Origin: a virus
Strand: one strand, 5' to 3'
DNA length: 34,168 nt
IMG/VR virus record: IMGVR_UViG_3300045885_000260
Location: 1 to 34,168 of that record
Position 1 is the first letter of the stretch; each line of letters begins with the position of its first letter. The notes beneath the pieces were generated by a model. The model saw only the letters and a list, made by a program, of their open reading frames with translations. It had not been told where the DNA came from and ran no database searches. Of the stretch, positions 3,110 through 30,217 are shown one piece after another. The position numbers and the translations under genes were made by a program.

Positions 3110-3838
3110 TCAGGCCTGGGTGGCCGTTTCGGTGTCATGCTGCGCTGCGGTGGCCCAGAGGCGCTCTTTCTCCTCCTCGCTGAACAGCGCCCGCTGAGCC
3201 GGGCTGAACAGCGCCCAGGTACGCTCGAGCATATGCACTCCGCGCTTGGCCTTTTCCTCGAGTCGCTTGGTCAGGTTGTCGCGCTGGCCTTCGACATCGG
3301 CCGGCGGCTTGGCGCCTTCGGGCCGGCGCTGGTGGCGCACGCTCACCTGCATCCCGTCGGTGTCTTCGCCATGCGCCTGCATGCCTAGCGCGGCGAGCAG
3401 CGAGATGCGCTTGACGTAGCTCACGGCCGCCCCCAGCGCCTGCCAATCGCTCAGGCCACCAGGCAGGCGCGCCGAACCGGTGCACAGCTCGACCATTGCG
3501 CCGCTTTCATGCAGCACGCGGGTGTGCACAATGATGCGGTCCGGCTCTTCGAGGTCGACCGGCTGCATGACCATGAGGTTTTGCTCGCCCATGGCCGGCT
3601 GCACCACGTCGTAGACGTCGGCCAAGTCGGCATAGGCATATTCAAAGCTGCTGCCGGTCCGCGCCGAGGTCACCCGCGCCAGCCGCGACTTGGAGAGCGT
3701 GGCCATGCTGTGGCGGGCGCGCACCAGGCCCGCGGCCACCAGCGGGTCGAGCTGCATGACGGTTGGCGGGCGCGGGGCGGTAACCCATTCGGGCCAGGTG
3801 CCAGGCGTGCGGTCTGTACTGTTATCGGTATCGCTCAT
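3110..3838 (-). CDS. erf: ERF-family single-strand annealing protein
   Basis: A 242-aa recombinase that would bind and anneal single-stranded DNA during phage recombination and replication. The ERF core is clear: YAYADLADVYDVVQPAM, then the -hxxhh-TRVLHESGAMVE segment, then QALGAAVSYVKRISLLAALGM and EDTDG (about residues 65-160). The C-terminal third is charged and helical. No RecE/exo or SSB gene is recognisable beside it. The only purine-rich candidate RBS before the ATG (AAGGACAAGGGC) is the constant head of repeat A, so the repeat seems to double as its ribosome binding site. Confidence 0.88.
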   Translation of the reverse strand: MSDTDNSTDRTPGTWPEWVTAPRPPTVMQLDPLVAAGLVRARHSMATLSKSRLARVTSARTGSSFEYAYADLADVYDVVQPAMGEQNLMVMQPVDLEEPDRIIVHTRVLHESGAMVELCTGSARLPGGLSDWQALGAAVSYVKRISLLAALGMQAHGEDTDGMQVSVRHQRRPEGAKPPADVEGQRDNLTKRLEEKAKRGVHMLERTWALFSPAQRALFSEEEKERLWATAAQHDTETATQA

Positions 3839-3843
3839 CGTGT

Positions 3844-3934
3844 TGCCCTTGTCCTTGCCTGGCCGGGCCGGGCCGCGCCCCGCCTAGCCATGCCTTGCCC
3901 GGCCAAACCAGGGCTGGCCTCGCCATGCCAGGCC
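3844..3934. repeat. Composite repeat A: constant head plus 15 pentamers
   Basis: The 16-bp head TGCCCTTGTCCTTGCC (3844-3859) is followed by 15 units of 5 bp ending in GCC or close to it (3860-3934). The last three bases of each unit are nearly constant and the first two vary. On the transcribed (minus) strand this reads GGCNN repeats ending in GGCAAGGACAAGGGCA just before the ERF start codon. It fills almost the whole gap between ERF and the stop codon of the gene upstream. Confidence 0.85.
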
Positions 3935-3937
3935 GGT

Positions 3938-4468
3938 TCAATGCATCCTCTGCACCGTCTCGCGCGCCAGCGCGAGCGCCTGCGCGACGATGGTGAGTTG
4001 TTCCACCCGCGTCGGATCATCGCCGTTGCTGGCGATGCGCTTCGCGTCAGCAAGGGCTGCCTCAGTGCTTTGCAGGCGCCGCGTGAGCTCTTGTATTACC
4101 GCCATCCACTCCAGCGGGTTGTCGCGTGCGACGCGGGCGCTTTGGTAATAGTCCTGGGCCTCCTCTTCGTTGGCCGCCTCGAGGTGCACATGCATGTAGG
4201 CCGGCTCATCTTCGCCAGACTCATCGGTGTACAGCCGCACGGAGCGCACCAGCTCGCGCGCCTCGCGCAAGCGATGCAGATGGGCCGCGCGCGCATCGTC
4301 CCAGGTAAAGGCCGGATGCAGCGGCGCTTCCTCGGGTTGCGCACCCTCGAGCACGCCCTCGGTGGTCAAGCGCCCGTCATTGGCGGCGCGGATGCGCTCG
4401 AGCTCCTCGCCACAGGTCTGGGCGTCGAGCCCCGGAACGGTTCTACCGCGATAACGATAACGCATCAT
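3938..4468 (-). CDS. Conserved-looking phage protein, unknown function
   Basis: A 176-aa acidic protein. Start ATG at 4466-4468 with a good Shine-Dalgarno (GAGGAG) about 10 bases upstream; a second ATG follows directly. Features are an N-terminal YRYRGRTVPGLDAQTCGEEL, a central APLHPAFTWDDARAAH followed by an Arg-rich helix, and a C-terminal helical half that looks able to form a coiled coil. I recall similar hypothetical proteins in phages but no function. It stands alone between composite repeats A and B, with an early-operon position beside ERF suggesting a DNA metabolism role (inference). Confidence 0.7.
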   Translation of the reverse strand: MMRYRYRGRTVPGLDAQTCGEELERIRAANDGRLTTEGVLEGAQPEEAPLHPAFTWDDARAAHLHRLREARELVRSVRLYTDESGEDEPAYMHVHLEAANEEEAQDYYQSARVARDNPLEWMAVIQELTRRLQSTEAALADAKRIASNGDDPTRVEQLTIVAQALALARETVQRMH

Positions 4469-4496
4469 TTGTTGCTTACTCCTCTGTCAGACAAAA

Positions 4497-4582
4497 TGCC
4501 CTTGTCCTTGCCTGGCCGCGCCAGGCCGCGCCTAACCCGACCGTGCCAGGCCGCGCCAGGCCCCGCCTTGCCATGCCGGGCC
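4497..4582. repeat. Composite repeat B: head plus 14 pentamers
   Basis: Head TGCCCTTGTCCTTGCC at 4497-4512, then 14 consecutive 5-bp units (4513-4582) of form NNGCC, with two units reading NNACC. It starts 28 bases upstream of the 4468 gene start. A 39-base spacer containing CAATTTTTTCTCC separates it from repeat C. Confidence 0.85.
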
Positions 4583-4621
4583 ACTTGGTACAATTTTTTC
4601 TCCGCCCCGCCAACATGGTGC

Positions 4622-4699
4622 TGCCCTTGTCCTTGCCTCGCCAGGCCCAGCCTCGCCCAACCTCTACCTTGCCCAAGCGCGGCCAGACCCCGCCCCGCA
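4622..4699. repeat. Composite repeat C: head plus degenerate pentamers
   Basis: Head at 4622-4637, identical to the other copies. The following pentamers are regular to 4662 and then drift in phase (TCTACC, CAAGCGC). It is the least regular of the six. A spacer at 4700-4728 with AAGAAAATTGATCTCGCCCC separates it from repeat D. Confidence 0.75.
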
Positions 4700-4728
4700 T
4701 TAAGAAAATTGATCTCGCCCCATTGTGC

Positions 4729-4844
4729 TGCCCTTGTCCTTGCCAAGCCGTGCCACGCCAAGCCCCGCCGCGCCGTGCCGCACCGCACCGCGCCGTGCTT
4801 GGCCGCGCCGGGCCAGGCCCAGCCTTGCCACGCCGTGCCCGCCT
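4729..4844. repeat. Composite repeat D: head plus about 20 pentamers
   Basis: Head at 4729-4744, then about 20 pentamers in one phase (4745-4844), reaching to within six bases of the stop codon of the gene at 4850. With B and C it makes up nearly all of the 381-base gap between two early genes, which otherwise holds no ORF on the transcribed strand and no tRNA. Confidence 0.85.
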
Positions 4845-4849
4845 CGCCG

Positions 4850-5518
4850 CTACAACACCCTAAACAATCCAAATCCAATACCCGCCGAGCTCTCGGAAAA
4901 CGGCCGACCCTGCCCGATGCCCACCTGCTCGCCCACGCGCTGCACCAGTTGCACGATTTCCTCGAACGTGATCTTGCTCGCGTCGTAGCGGATGTGCGGC
5001 TTGAGGTGCCAGGTGCGGAACAAGGTCCGCGCGCGCAGGTCGACACTGCGCTGGCGCCCGGCGTTGCGCACGCTGGAGATGAATTTTTCCGGGGTGCCGT
5101 GCACGCGCATGATGGGCCAGGCGGTGAGCGCGTCGAATCCATCCGGCACCACGAAAAACAGCATCTTTGCCAATGTCATTTTCAAAGTCGTGAGCCGGCA
5201 GGCGTCGATGCACGCCTTGCGCAGACTGTTGACGTTGATGCCCGGCCAGGCGTCAGGCGCTGGCGCGTAGTAGCACGATTCCCGGTACTCGCGCTCGAAG
5301 TCGCGCGGCGGGCGCGGCATCTTGGCCGCTTTCGATTTTTCGGCCTCGTTGAGCGCGTCGCCCCGTTCCATCTTGCGCATCATGGTCTCGATTTCTGTGG
5401 GGCCCATGCGGCACACGCACAGGGGCGCGGTGCCCTCCAGTTCCATCGTCAGGAATTGAAAAGACGACTCGCTTTTCTTGACCGGCGCCGATTCGCCTTT
5501 CTTGCCGCTCATTGCCAT
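4850..5518 (-). CDS. Conserved phage protein of the early region, unknown function
   Basis: A 222-aa protein with a strong RBS (GGAGGAG) 7-13 bases before the ATG. The layout matches a family seen often in phage early regions: an N-terminal strand MELEGTAPLCVCRMG, a KMPRPPRDFEREYRESCYY segment, INVNSLRKACIDACR, a central RVHGTPEKFISSVRNAGRQR, and a glycine-rich C-terminus (VGIGQGRPFSES, then AGIGFGLFRV). The Gly-rich end after an alpha/beta fold faintly recalls RAMP-like RNA-binding proteins; this is only an impression. Neighbour genes (ERF, DUF1376) suggest a role with nucleic acid. Confidence 0.75.
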   Translation of the reverse strand: MAMSGKKGESAPVKKSESSFQFLTMELEGTAPLCVCRMGPTEIETMMRKMERGDALNEAEKSKAAKMPRPPRDFEREYRESCYYAPAPDAWPGINVNSLRKACIDACRLTTLKMTLAKMLFFVVPDGFDALTAWPIMRVHGTPEKFISSVRNAGRQRSVDLRARTLFRTWHLKPHIRYDASKITFEEIVQLVQRVGEQVGIGQGRPFSESSAGIGFGLFRVL

Positions 5519-5550
5519 GGGTGGTCTCCTCCGCTAACTTGCTTAGATAA

Positions 5551-5632
5551 TGCCCTTGTCCTTGCCTTAGCCATGCCTTGCCCTGCCAGGCCTCACCGCG
5601 CCACGCCTCGCCCTGCCAGGCCCTGCCGGGCC
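5551..5632. repeat. Composite repeat E: head plus 13 units
   Basis: Head at 5551-5566, a 6-bp unit, then 12 pentamers to 5632. It begins 32 bases upstream of the start of the 5518 gene. Spacer 5633-5670 to repeat F contains AAAATCCTTTC and ends like the B-C spacer. Confidence 0.85.
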
Positions 5633-5670
5633 AGCAAAATCCTTTCACCCGCCCCGCCCTCATGTATTGC

Positions 5671-5772
5671 TGCCCTTGTCCTTGCCTGGCCTGGCCCTAC
5701 CCCGCCTGGCCGTACCCAACCACGCCCCGCTCCGCCTCGCCATACCTCGCCCACGCCCCGCCACGCCTTGCC
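5671..5772. repeat. Composite repeat F: head plus 17 units
   Basis: Head at 5671-5686, then 17 units, one of them 6 bp, to 5772. The array stops two bases before the stop codon of the gene at 5775. Same constant GCC and variable first two bases as the other copies. Confidence 0.85.
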
Positions 5773-5774
5773 AG

Positions 5775-6062
5775 CTATACACCTGTGAACAACAACTCAA
5801 GCTGCTCGACCCTTCTCTGCTCCTCCTCCACCCGCCCATGCACCCGCGCGCTCACGTAGCGGCGCAGCGAGCCGGTCTCGCAGCCGGCCATCGTGGCCAC
5901 CTGCTTGAGCGCCTTGGTGTAGGACTCGGTTGTGCTCTTGGCCAGGATGCACAGATTGGTGAGCTCGGGCAGGCGCTCGCGCAGCAGGGTGACGTTGATG
6001 AGCGAGGCGCTGCTGACGATGGCCTGCACGGCGGAATCGCTCATGATGACGTTGTCGTTCAT
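5775..6062 (-). CDS. Small phage protein, unknown function
   Basis: A 95-aa protein. The start chosen is the ATG at 6060-6062, which overlaps the upstream stop as ATGA; an in-frame ATG 21 bases earlier lies inside the upstream gene. It is all-helical in appearance: VQAIVSSASLINVTLLRERL, LTNLCILAKSTTESYTKALK, then GCETGSLRRYVSARV and a Glu/Arg-rich end (EEEQRRVEQLELLF). The GCETGSLRRYV segment could be the second half of a helix-turn-helix, so a regulator is possible. Not recognised as a named family. Confidence 0.65.
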   Translation of the reverse strand: MNDNVIMSDSAVQAIVSSASLINVTLLRERLPELTNLCILAKSTTESYTKALKQVATMAGCETGSLRRYVSARVHGRVEEEQRRVEQLELLFTGV

Positions 6063-6271
6063 TGCCAGGTCCTCCCAAGCCACCCTTCCTTGACCTCGGG
6101 CGCATCGTCGGGCATGGGCACTATCGGCCCGTACAGGCCAGCTGGCAGCTTGGCGCGCACGTCATCCAAGTCGACCCCGATGCGGCACTCGCCGGTCTCG
6201 CGCCAGTTCTCCAGGCGCCGCGCCTCATAGCCAAAGGGGCGCTCATACACAAACCACCAGATGCAGCTCAT
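6059..6271 (-). CDS. Small phage protein, unknown function
   Basis: A 70-aa protein beginning MSCIWWFVYERPFGYEARRL. The ATG at 6269-6271 has a purine-rich AAGGGAAG about 8 bases upstream and overlaps the stop of the gene before it (ATGA), which excludes the longer frame from 6433. There is an acidic middle (GVDLDDVRAKLPAG) and a Trp near the end (GWLGRTWQ). No domain recognised. Coupled to both neighbours in the early operon. Confidence 0.6.
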   Translation of the reverse strand: MSCIWWFVYERPFGYEARRLENWRETGECRIGVDLDDVRAKLPAGLYGPIVPMPDDAPEVKEGWLGRTWQ

Positions 6272-7640: not shown

Positions 7641-7700
7641 GTGCTCTGGGACGCTCTAGGGCGCTCTGGAGCGCTCTGGAGCGCTCTGGAGCGATTCGAC
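7641..7700. repeat. 10-bp tandem repeats, iteron-like
   Basis: Three perfect GCGCTCTGGA units (7661-7690) are flanked by two degenerate units before (GTGCTCTGGG, ACGCTCTAGG) and a partial one after. The period of 10 bp puts all copies on one DNA face, as in iterons or cooperative regulator sites. Each junction contains the palindrome GAGCGCTC. They lie in the gap between two HTH genes. Confidence 0.65.
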
Positions 7701-27634: not shown

Positions 27635-28215
27635 GCAAAGCCCCGGCGCACGCGGTGGAAGTCGAGCAGCGCGCGCACCGCCACCGGCAGGGTGCCGCCC
27701 ACGGTGGTGCCCACCACCGCGTTCTCGCGGTGCTCGTACCAATCGCCGATCAGCAGTTGCATGGCCTGCTTGATGCCGGCGGGCACGTTGGCGGCCAGGT
27801 CGGGCGGGTCGGCCTCGTTGGGCGGGAAGCCGGCCACGTAGGTCACCACAAAGGGCGCGGTGTCGCCCTCCACCCCGGTCACCTCCTGCACCGGCCCGAA
27901 GGGCAGCAGCGCGCTAGCATTGGGCGCATCCGCCGGCCAGGCGGCCATGGTGGCGGTGCGCGTCTGGGTGACGAACGACAAGCCGGTGTAGGCCTCGCAG
28001 TAGTCGGTGGCGGCCTGGATGAGCGCGGTGATATAGCTATCCTCGGTCGCCCCGTCGATGCGGTGCGCGAGTTTCACCTCCTCGAGCGTCAGCGGCGGCA
28101 CGGCCGGCGGCACGGTGACCGCGGTGTCGAGCACCAGGCCCGCGCCCATGCCCGGCATCGCAGCCCACCCATACGGCCATTCCGGCTGGCAGCGGCACAC
28201 GCCCAGGTAGAGCAT
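27631..28215 (-). CDS. Head-tail connector (HK97 gp6-like)
   Basis: A 194-aa adaptor protein. The gp6-like core starts at about residue 40: PPLTLEEVKLAHRIDGATED, SYITALIQAATDYCEAYTGL, a strand region, then VPAGIKQAMQLLIGDWYEHR, NAVVG. It joins portal to head closure protein. The extra N-terminal 35 residues (MLYLGVCRCQPEWPYGW) are unusual. The ATG at 28213-28215 directly follows the stop of the collagen-like gene; a start at MPGMGAGLV (residue 20) is an alternative. Confidence 0.85.
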   Translation of the reverse strand: MLYLGVCRCQPEWPYGWAAMPGMGAGLVLDTAVTVPPAVPPLTLEEVKLAHRIDGATEDSYITALIQAATDYCEAYTGLSFVTQTRTATMAAWPADAPNASALLPFGPVQEVTGVEGDTAPFVVTYVAGFPPNEADPPDLAANVPAGIKQAMQLLIGDWYEHRENAVVGTTVGGTLPVAVRALLDFHRVRRGFA

Positions 28216-28821
28216 TCAGCGCCCTCCGTTCTTGGCGTCGCGCCCGTGGCGCACCGCCAGGGTCCAAACAGGCGCGCCGATGTCTGGCCGCTCGCTGGTG
28301 GGCAGGTTGCAGTGATAGAGCTGCCCGGCATAGGTCACCGTGTCGCCCGGCTCGTAGTCGCCGGGGGTGAACACGCCGCGATAGATCAGCATCGGCCAAT
28401 GCAGCGCATGGGTGTCGGCGGCGCCGTCGGTCAGGGTGAGTTTGACGGTCGACACCCGGCCTTCGAGGCCGAATGCGATGTCGTCCACACCGCGCACCAC
28501 CACCTGCCAGCCGGCGCGCTCGAGCGCGCCGCCCTCGGGCAGCGGCTCGGTCTGGCGTACCGCGCGCACCAGGCCGCCGCGGCAGCACGCCCAGGTGCCG
28601 CGCGCATAGCTGCGCTCCGGGTGAATCGCGTCGAGCACCTCGAGCGCGGCGGCGTCGCGTCCGGCCTCGCCATCCTTGCCGTCGCGCCCGTCGCGTCCGT
28701 CCTTGGGCACCGGCTGCGCCGCCATGCGCTGCGCATAGGCGGCCATGCGCCGGTCAATCTCGCCCGCGCAGTAGACCTTGACGGCGGCAAACAAATCTTC
28801 GGCGAGCACCTCAGGCTGCAT
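28216..28821 (-). CDS. Collagen-like/carbohydrate-binding head-region protein
   Basis: A 201-aa protein starting at ATG 28819-28821 (MQPEVLAEDLFAAVKVYCAG), overlapping the portal end by 11 bases. After an N-terminal helix there is a short collagen-like stretch (PKDGRDGRDGKDGEAGRD, about 39-56), then beta-rich residues and a C-terminal small module at about 155-190 (GVFTPGDYEPGDTVTYAGQL, then YHCNL) that resembles carbohydrate-binding type 5/12 modules. Such proteins decorate virions or bind sugars. Genes like this often follow portal in related phages. Exact role unknown. Confidence 0.7.
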   Translation of the reverse strand: MQPEVLAEDLFAAVKVYCAGEIDRRMAAYAQRMAAQPVPKDGRDGRDGKDGEAGRDAAALEVLDAIHPERSYARGTWACCRGGLVRAVRQTEPLPEGGALERAGWQVVVRGVDDIAFGLEGRVSTVKLTLTDGAADTHALHWPMLIYRGVFTPGDYEPGDTVTYAGQLYHCNLPTSERPDIGAPVWTLAVRHGRDAKNGGR

Positions 28822-30217
28822 GCGCGGCCTCCTGTAGAAAGCGCGCGGTGGCCGCACGCATGAACGCCTTGGCCGCATCCTCTGCAGGCGCGGGCGCCGG
28901 CTGCACGCTGGGCTTGGGCTCGGCTTCGGGCGGCGGGCGCGTGTCGAGCGCGGCGAGCGACCAATTCTGCTGCTGCATGTATGGCGTCTGGCCCCCCGTC
29001 ACCGGCGAGAGATTGACCCTCGCGCGCGCCTCGTTGGGCGCCAGATAGCCGGCGCGCGTTTCTTGCTCGTTGACCTGCGCCATGGTCAGCGGGTCCATGC
29101 GCAGGATGCCCTCCAGGTCGAGCTCGGTGCCCAGGTTGGCGTTGGGTGTGACACCCAGGCCCAGGCCCTCGTCCAGCAGCAGCTCGATGTCCTCGATGAG
29201 TTTCTGCAGGGTCTGCGTGTAATAGTCTTGATTCAGGGCGGTGATGTTGTTGAGCGTGGGCTGGCCCTGGTTGACCTTGTGCAGCGGCACATGGAAACAG
29301 CGCGCCACGTCCTCGACGGTCCAGCGCAACTGCTCGATCAACTGAGCCGATTGCGCCGGCATGGTCACGCTCTCGAATTTGGCCCCGCCGCTCAACACCG
29401 CGGTGCTGCCGAGCTGGCCGCTGCCGTAGTTGGCCTGCCAGTATTCGCGATACTTCTTGAGCTGCTCGTCGGTCACCTCGGGCGGGAAGGTGAGCACGCC
29501 GGCCGGAATGCTCAGGTTGCCGAAAAAGCGCTCGCTGTTGGCCTGGATGCGGATGCCCTGCGTGGCGCTCGAGCCGGCCGCCACCAGCGGCGGGATGCCC
29601 ACCAGCGGGTGAAACAAGGTCATGCAGCGGTCATGGATGATGTCGCGCGCCGGCACCATCACCTCAGTGTCATTGGCCCGGTCGGGCACCTGGGCGAGCT
29701 GGTCGCCGCGCAGCCGATACCACACCGCGCCCTCGGGAGTGACCATCGGCACCACGCGCGCGGGGTCGAGCACATGCAGGGCGGTCACGACCGGGCGCTG
29801 GTCGTACTCTTTCAGGATGTAGGTATTGCCCCACAGCAGCTTGGAGGTGATCCACTGCGAAATGAATTGAATCCGCGTCTGGTAGCCGTTGGGCTTGCGC
29901 AGCACCGGCGAAAAGGCGCTGCGCTCGGTTTCATGCCAGATGCCCTGGGCGTCCCTCTCCACCAGCTTGATGCGCAGCTTGGAGATGTCGTCCGAGATGA
30001 GCCCCACGCAGGCATACACCGCGGAGAATTTCAGAATGTTCTCGTTGCACTCGATGGCAACGTTGCGCTGCCAGGCGCCGGTGAACGGCTCGAGGATGCG
30101 CCCGAACAGGCCATAGCCCCAGCCGCTGCGCCCGCCCGGATACCAGGCCCCGGCCGGGCGCAGGTCGCGCGGTGCGGGAGCGCGCGCCTTGGTGATCTCG
30201 ATGCCCAGAATTTTCAT
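28811..30217 (-). CDS. Portal protein (HK97 family)
   Basis: A 468-aa portal that forms the dodecameric DNA channel. Family features: VAIECNENILKFSAVYACVG near residue 55, ISDDISKLRIKLVERD, LRKPNGYQTRIQFISQWITS, KLLWGNTYILKEYDQ, VVTALHVLDPARVVP, DIIHDRCMTLFHPLVGIPPL, FGNLSIPAGVLTFP, and DVARCFHVPLHKVN with TLNNITALNQDYYTQTL. The C-terminus is Pro/Ala-rich. It is positioned after the capsid gene rather than before the protease. Start ATG 30215-30217 overlaps the stop of the upstream small gene by ATGA. Confidence 0.95.
   Translation of the reverse strand: MKILGIEITKARAPAPRDLRPAGAWYPGGRSGWGYGLFGRILEPFTGAWQRNVAIECNENILKFSAVYACVGLISDDISKLRIKLVERDAQGIWHETERSAFSPVLRKPNGYQTRIQFISQWITSKLLWGNTYILKEYDQRPVVTALHVLDPARVVPMVTPEGAVWYRLRGDQLAQVPDRANDTEVMVPARDIIHDRCMTLFHPLVGIPPLVAAGSSATQGIRIQANSERFFGNLSIPAGVLTFPPEVTDEQLKKYREYWQANYGSGQLGSTAVLSGGAKFESVTMPAQSAQLIEQLRWTVEDVARCFHVPLHKVNQGQPTLNNITALNQDYYTQTLQKLIEDIELLLDEGLGLGVTPNANLGTELDLEGILRMDPLTMAQVNEQETRAGYLAPNEARARVNLSPVTGGQTPYMQQQNWSLAALDTRPPPEAEPKPSVQPAPAPAEDAAKAFMRAATARFLQEAAHAA

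Follow-up and report, generated by a model that had tools for sequence, protein, structure and literature searches.

Six GGY/NN arrays in a temperate phage genome are very probably guide RNA genes of a VIPR system

Which kind of element occurs six times between 3.8 and 5.8 kb of a viral genome, each time as the same short head joined to an array of related pentamers? The question is raised by the window, i.e. the whole stretch of 34,168 bases analysed here (IMG/VR record IMGVR_UViG_3300045885_000260), where an exact match search confirmed that the 16-bp head TGCCCTTGTCCTTGCC is present in six identical copies, at 3844, 4497, 4622, 4729, 5551 and 5671, as a sequence-only reading had reported. 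No further match with up to two mismatches was found anywhere in the 34,168-base record, and dinucleotide shuffles with up to three mismatches allowed gave a mean of 0.5 head matches. On the minus strand, i.e. in the same direction as the surrounding genes, each array reads (GGY-NN)n and then the constant head; the constant 3' element on this strand, GGCAAGGACAAGGGCA, is identical in all six arrays.

Parsing of the minus strand agrees with the earlier statement that a GG falls every five bases on the transcribed strand and refines two others. Counted upstream from the head, the arrays comprise 16, 15, 12, 22, 14 and 18 units, so that the proposed range of 14-20 was slightly off, and the pentamer frame is kept as described, but the fixed triplet is not GGC only, since GGY starts 88 of the 92 five-base units (76 GGC, 12 GGT, 0 GGA, 0 GGG). 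The NN doublets use 15 of the 16 possible kinds. The longest exact GGY-phased run has 15 units in the window as compared to 3 outside the array region, and the maximum in 200 first-order Markov shuffles was 4 units. One-base phase slips are found in four arrays (heads 4622, 4729, 5551 and 5671), and the array at 4633-4694 is degenerate, with six units in unbroken phase. The position next to start and stop codons, also noticed before, holds: heads 3844, 4497 and 5551 precede an ATG codon by 5, 28 and 32 bases, respectively, and three arrays (with ends at 3934, 4848 and 5772) start 1-3 bases past a stop codon.

The sequence-only reading knew no named family for such arrays, a view superseded by a preprint of April 2026 on VIPR, a CRISPR-like phage system used against other phages (PMC13142463), beyond which our literature search found no VIPR paper. 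VIPR combines a small RAMP-like protein, Vipr, with tandem GGY/NN guide RNAs (vrRNAs), is carried mostly by phages and proviruses, and is able to silence any chosen gene, lysogeny regulators included (PMC13142463). A vrRNA consists of 9-16 GGY/NN pentamers (the figure for type II) and an invariable 3' tail, and its NN doublets read DNA as NNxNNx, passing over a single target base after each doublet, with targets expected in other mobile elements (PMC13142463). Type II, the group of the SUSP1 and P. fulva Vipr with vap1, is the VIPR system that has been studied experimentally (PMC13142463). We consider it very probable (about 95%) that the six arrays are vrRNA genes of a VIPR system in a temperate phage, with the following putative parts:

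3855-3934, minus strand: guide tract of vrRNA A, 16 GGY/NN units, one GCC exception
3844-3859, minus strand: constant 3' element GGCAAGGACAAGGGCA of vrRNA A (candidate tail)
4508-4582, minus strand: guide tract of vrRNA B, 15 units, unbroken
4497-4512, minus strand: constant 3' element of vrRNA B
4633-4694, minus strand: guide tract of vrRNA C, degenerate, about 12 units, two one-base slips
4622-4637, minus strand: constant 3' element of vrRNA C
4740-4848, minus strand: guide tract of vrRNA D, 22 units, one of 4 bases
4729-4744, minus strand: constant 3' element of vrRNA D
5562-5632, minus strand: guide tract of vrRNA E, 14 units, one of 6 bases
5551-5566, minus strand: constant 3' element of vrRNA E
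5682-5772, minus strand: guide tract of vrRNA F, 18 units, one of 6 bases; a DUF559-like nuclease gene in other phages is the predicted target
5671-5686, minus strand: constant 3' element of vrRNA F

The gene located between the arrays codes for a Vipr; its family, phrog_4652, is listed as function unknown in PHROG:

4850-5518, minus strand: vipr gene, 222 aa, phrog_4652, RAMP-like (HMM, PDB 36pp, AlphaFold2, Foldseek)

Iterated HMM searches, run over the ORFs of the loci fetched by then, reached the same 87 proteins whether they were seeded with the window ORF or with the SUSP1 Vipr. When the family members of array-bearing contigs were combined in a profile, this matched PDB 36pp, 'SUSP1 Vipr protein', with E=1.1e-39, the second-ranked match being a weak one to Csm5, and the single window sequence matched 36pp with E=0.0014. 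The AlphaFold2 model of the window Vipr (pLDDT 92.9) gave 29 Foldseek matches at E<=0.001, every one of them an entry for a CRISPR complex (Csm, Cmr or type VII), with modest TM-scores (0.34-0.52) of the order expected between distant relatives. The near-invariant family residues R164, W170, G196, G200, G202, R205 and G217 are kept in the window protein. A peptide-pattern search of viral contigs retrieved no close relative of it, and the array region had no BLASTN match in phages or plasmids. The hypothetical product of gene 19 of Gordonia phage ODay (MW534375, 10412-10906) is weakly related to the Vipr of the window (E=4e-3), and by this sequence match it is possible that VIPR occurs in an isolated actinophage.

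The arrays and the gene occur together. Among 120 viral contigs chosen only for (GGCNN)9, 85 contain the Vipr family, in contrast to none of 119 control contigs, for which the 16-bp head was the sole criterion. As a marker the head by itself was rejected, as the 119 head-bearing viral stretches contain neither a GGC-phased array upstream nor Vipr. The array anatomy recurs in many viral contigs, with NN content that differs from contig to contig. The selection on spacing that had been proposed from the window is half of the meaning: it captures the GGY frame, and the data agree with guide RNAs whose frame would be held by Vipr and whose NN would form a variable code.

Thirty of the 120 viral (GGCNN)9 loci, including L132, L146, L160, L171, L200 and L245, have NN-varied arrays and no detectable Vipr on the examined stretch (maximum HMM sensitivity, best E=0.11); such loci might represent orphan guide RNAs, truncated stretches or carriers of a divergent Vipr. 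Five loci (L137, L186, L191, L231 and L232) lack Vipr and consist of nearly uniform simple repeats in which one or two kinds of NN occur; they are false positives of the repeat search. In the 3376 units counted over Vipr loci (L126-L245), most NN doublets start with a purine (AA, GC, GA, AG, GT, AT) and CN is depleted, a bias that may reflect positions 1-2 of target codons or avoidance of GGCC self-pairing.

Two genes adjoin the arrays on the side of vrRNA A:

3938-4468, minus strand: candidate vipr-accessory gene, 176 aa, phrog_15946; in 27/87 Vipr loci, marks one Vipr clade
3110-3838, minus strand: Erf-type ssDNA annealing protein (PF04404 E=1.3e-14; phrog_2324)

Relatives of phrog_15946 are present in 27 of the 87 Vipr loci and relatives of SUSP1 vap1 in 17, and no locus has both. 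In the Vipr tree a branch with 100/98 support parts the two accessory families, with the window on the phrog_15946 side. Thus, 3938-4468 is likely to be a VIPR accessory gene; among the published vap families the comparison covered vap1, which is ruled out. The model of its product (pLDDT 89.7) has weak matches in the PDB, the best one being a transcriptional regulator (E=0.06), with FoxO winged helices lower down, and therefore the models give only a hint that the protein may bind DNA. The Erf gene is situated directly downstream of vrRNA A and is regarded as a neighbour outside the VIPR core. In 5 loci an Erf-type annealing gene lies no more than 4 kb from vipr, and in 7 a relative of lambda-type exonuclease does, i.e. 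VIPR sometimes sits in a phage recombination module. Integrase, Erf, DUF1376, portal and terminase genes of the window point to a temperate phage. On the other side of the arrays, ORF 5797-6105 is probably spurious and the likely gene is 5775-6062, which has no relatives among the array loci examined. A separate tandem array, of GCTCTGGAGC, is located at 7643-7693 (5.1 copies, 90% matches).

If the arrays encode guides, their NN doublets should point to targets. Guides A, B, D, E and F were searched in viral contigs with an 8-unit, skip-1 seed. The seed of guide F (head 5671) matched 16 viral contigs, and eight of these matches as well as the sole bacterial one fall, in codon frame, into one nuclease family at the motif x-[ILV]-x-[VI]-E-x-[ED]-GGVWTQGRH, relatives of which in Acinetobacter phages carry the annotation DUF559 or very-short-patch-repair endonuclease. 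In the best match, viral contig L329, 31 of the 34 NN bases of guide F agree under a one-base skip, again in codon frame; the nuclease gene is located upstream of a terminase gene, and its protein matches DUF559 with E=0.0035, just under the cut-off. Beyond the seed, guide F matches at 16/22 bases and the other guides at most at 8/18, 6/16, 11/30 and 7/14. For the upstream part (14/16 at a chance of 0.3 per base) we estimate p ~3e-6, and ~2e-4 over the 84 contigs examined with related family members counted once, both values being our own estimate and not a tool's. The match runs on past the one-base slip of guide F, with 6/8 bases on the far side, which weakly suggests that a 6-base unit may be tolerated. 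When guide F was searched in bacterial genomes, a pattern of 12 units gave no exact match, and one of 10 units gave a single exact match, in a gene of this nuclease family in Pleomorphovibrio. From these matches we predict that guide F is likely to be directed at a DUF559-like nuclease gene in other phages.

In the viral contigs, guides A, B, D and E had only chance-level matches, and tblastn with degenerate peptides for guides B, E and D yielded no target. The nuclease is absent from the window, where guides A, B, D, E and F also lack a good match. When skips of 0, 1, 2 and 3 bases were compared over 296 guides in array loci, skip 1 was favoured, most of the excess coming from contigs retrieved with skip-1 seeds, so that the comparison is not independent.

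The VIPR reading draws on the observed homology and fold of Vipr, on arrays with GGY/NN anatomy and a constant 3' element, and on one codon-phased near-match of a guide to a nuclease gene in other phages. By analogy with the published type II systems we assume that the RNAs are transcribed and processed, that a complex assembles, binds DNA and silences genes, and that the phrog_15946 protein has its role as accessory. Accordingly modelled, a minus-strand operon at 3.8-5.8 kb would be transcribed, giving vrRNAs and Vipr, and each GGY/NN tract together with the constant GGCAAGGACAAGGGCA element would become a short RNA. Vipr would assemble on the vrRNA such that GGY is held and NN presented, the doublets could pair with double-stranded DNA reading NNxNNx..., and this RNA-guided DNA binding may finally silence genes of rival phages or prophages. 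Several features count against the VIPR reading: two tracts have 18 and 22 units in the genomic parse as compared to the published 9-16, four of the six tracts contain slips and one is degenerate, guides A, B, D and E are without a convincing target, the constant element is short and unlike the structured SUSP1 tail, and in the Vipr tree a long branch leads to the protein of the window. A looser code than in type II might apply in this clade, with 6-base units that cause no shift of the target register, no need for a structured tail and the phrog_15946 protein as accessory, an idea that we regard as possible, if rather doubtful.

The vrRNAs might also act mainly on the phage's own or on host genes, e.g. 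in timing or lysogeny, instead of on rival phages. This would be in line with the ability of VIPR to silence lysogeny regulators (PMC13142463) and with the four tested guides for which no viral target was found, but guides A, B, D, E and F lack a good match in the window and guide F points at a nuclease gene of other phages, which makes such a main role improbable. It is even less probable that the G-rich pentamers are cis-acting spacing or leader elements for translation or transcription of the next gene, e.g. in ribosome loading or R-loop formation. Every array does lie in a gap, in a single orientation and beside start or stop codons, three heads being 5-32 bases ahead of ATG codons; however, arrays C, D and F precede another array and not a gene, the presence of arrays follows that of the Vipr gene from contig to contig, and the variable NN and the match of guide F would be left unexplained. 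Replication slippage or an assembly artefact, suggested by the pentamer periodicity and by Tandem Repeats Finder, which reports imperfect arrays, can be dismissed as main cause because the arrays recur together with Vipr, with differing NN content in many viral contigs and with GGY kept while NN is diverse, which had already led the sequence-only reading to reject simple slippage.

As this kind of system was first reported in April 2026, the present result is of value as independent confirmation and for offering a candidate accessory family together with a testable target. Approached from a raw sequence reading, an independent set of contigs confirms that VIPR arrays are common in phages, and the window extends the known cases beyond type II, the type studied experimentally, with phrog_15946 as a candidate accessory family that marks one Vipr clade. 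Functions are suggested for two PHROG families of unknown function, i.e. Vipr for 4652 and a candidate accessory protein for 15946. Moreover, the predicted target, a DUF559-like nuclease gene, is concrete, and phage-phage targeting is therefore directly testable.

How does the system relate to known ones? Repeat searches for CRISPR repeats and spacers show only pentamers in the array region, no cas families were found among the scanned part of the window genes, and an Rfam scan of the window had no match, so that no known ribozyme lies between the arrays. The RAMP subunits of class 1 CRISPR-Cas (Csm3/Csm5/Cmr, type VII) resemble Vipr in the fold of the model and in the weak Csm5 sequence match, and in both a guide RNA is held at regular intervals according to the published model, whereas the guide information of the window is split into doublets. 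In cyanophage Cy-LDV1 (BK059895), g33 and g34, both annotated hypothetical, are adjacent homologues of the two window proteins (36-37% identity) and are adjoined by GGY/NN arrays, which differ in the separator GGCAGGC and in NN content. In SUSP1 (L246, KT454805), GGY arrays flank the genes 28474-29061 and 28031-28471, which we take from the published layout as vipr and vap1, respectively. The window shares with this phage-borne type II system a RAMP-like Vipr homologue, GGY/NN tracts on both sides of vipr, a constant 3' element and, beside vipr, one accessory gene, a candidate in the case of the window. It differs in this gene (phrog_15946 instead of vap1), in a Vipr from another supported clade, in triplets that are mostly GGC instead of GGT, in a short constant element known from its sequence, where the SUSP1 tail is structured, and in tracts some of which exceed 16 units or contain slips. 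Judged by these sequence features, the system of the window is placed outside type II, the one published type compared.
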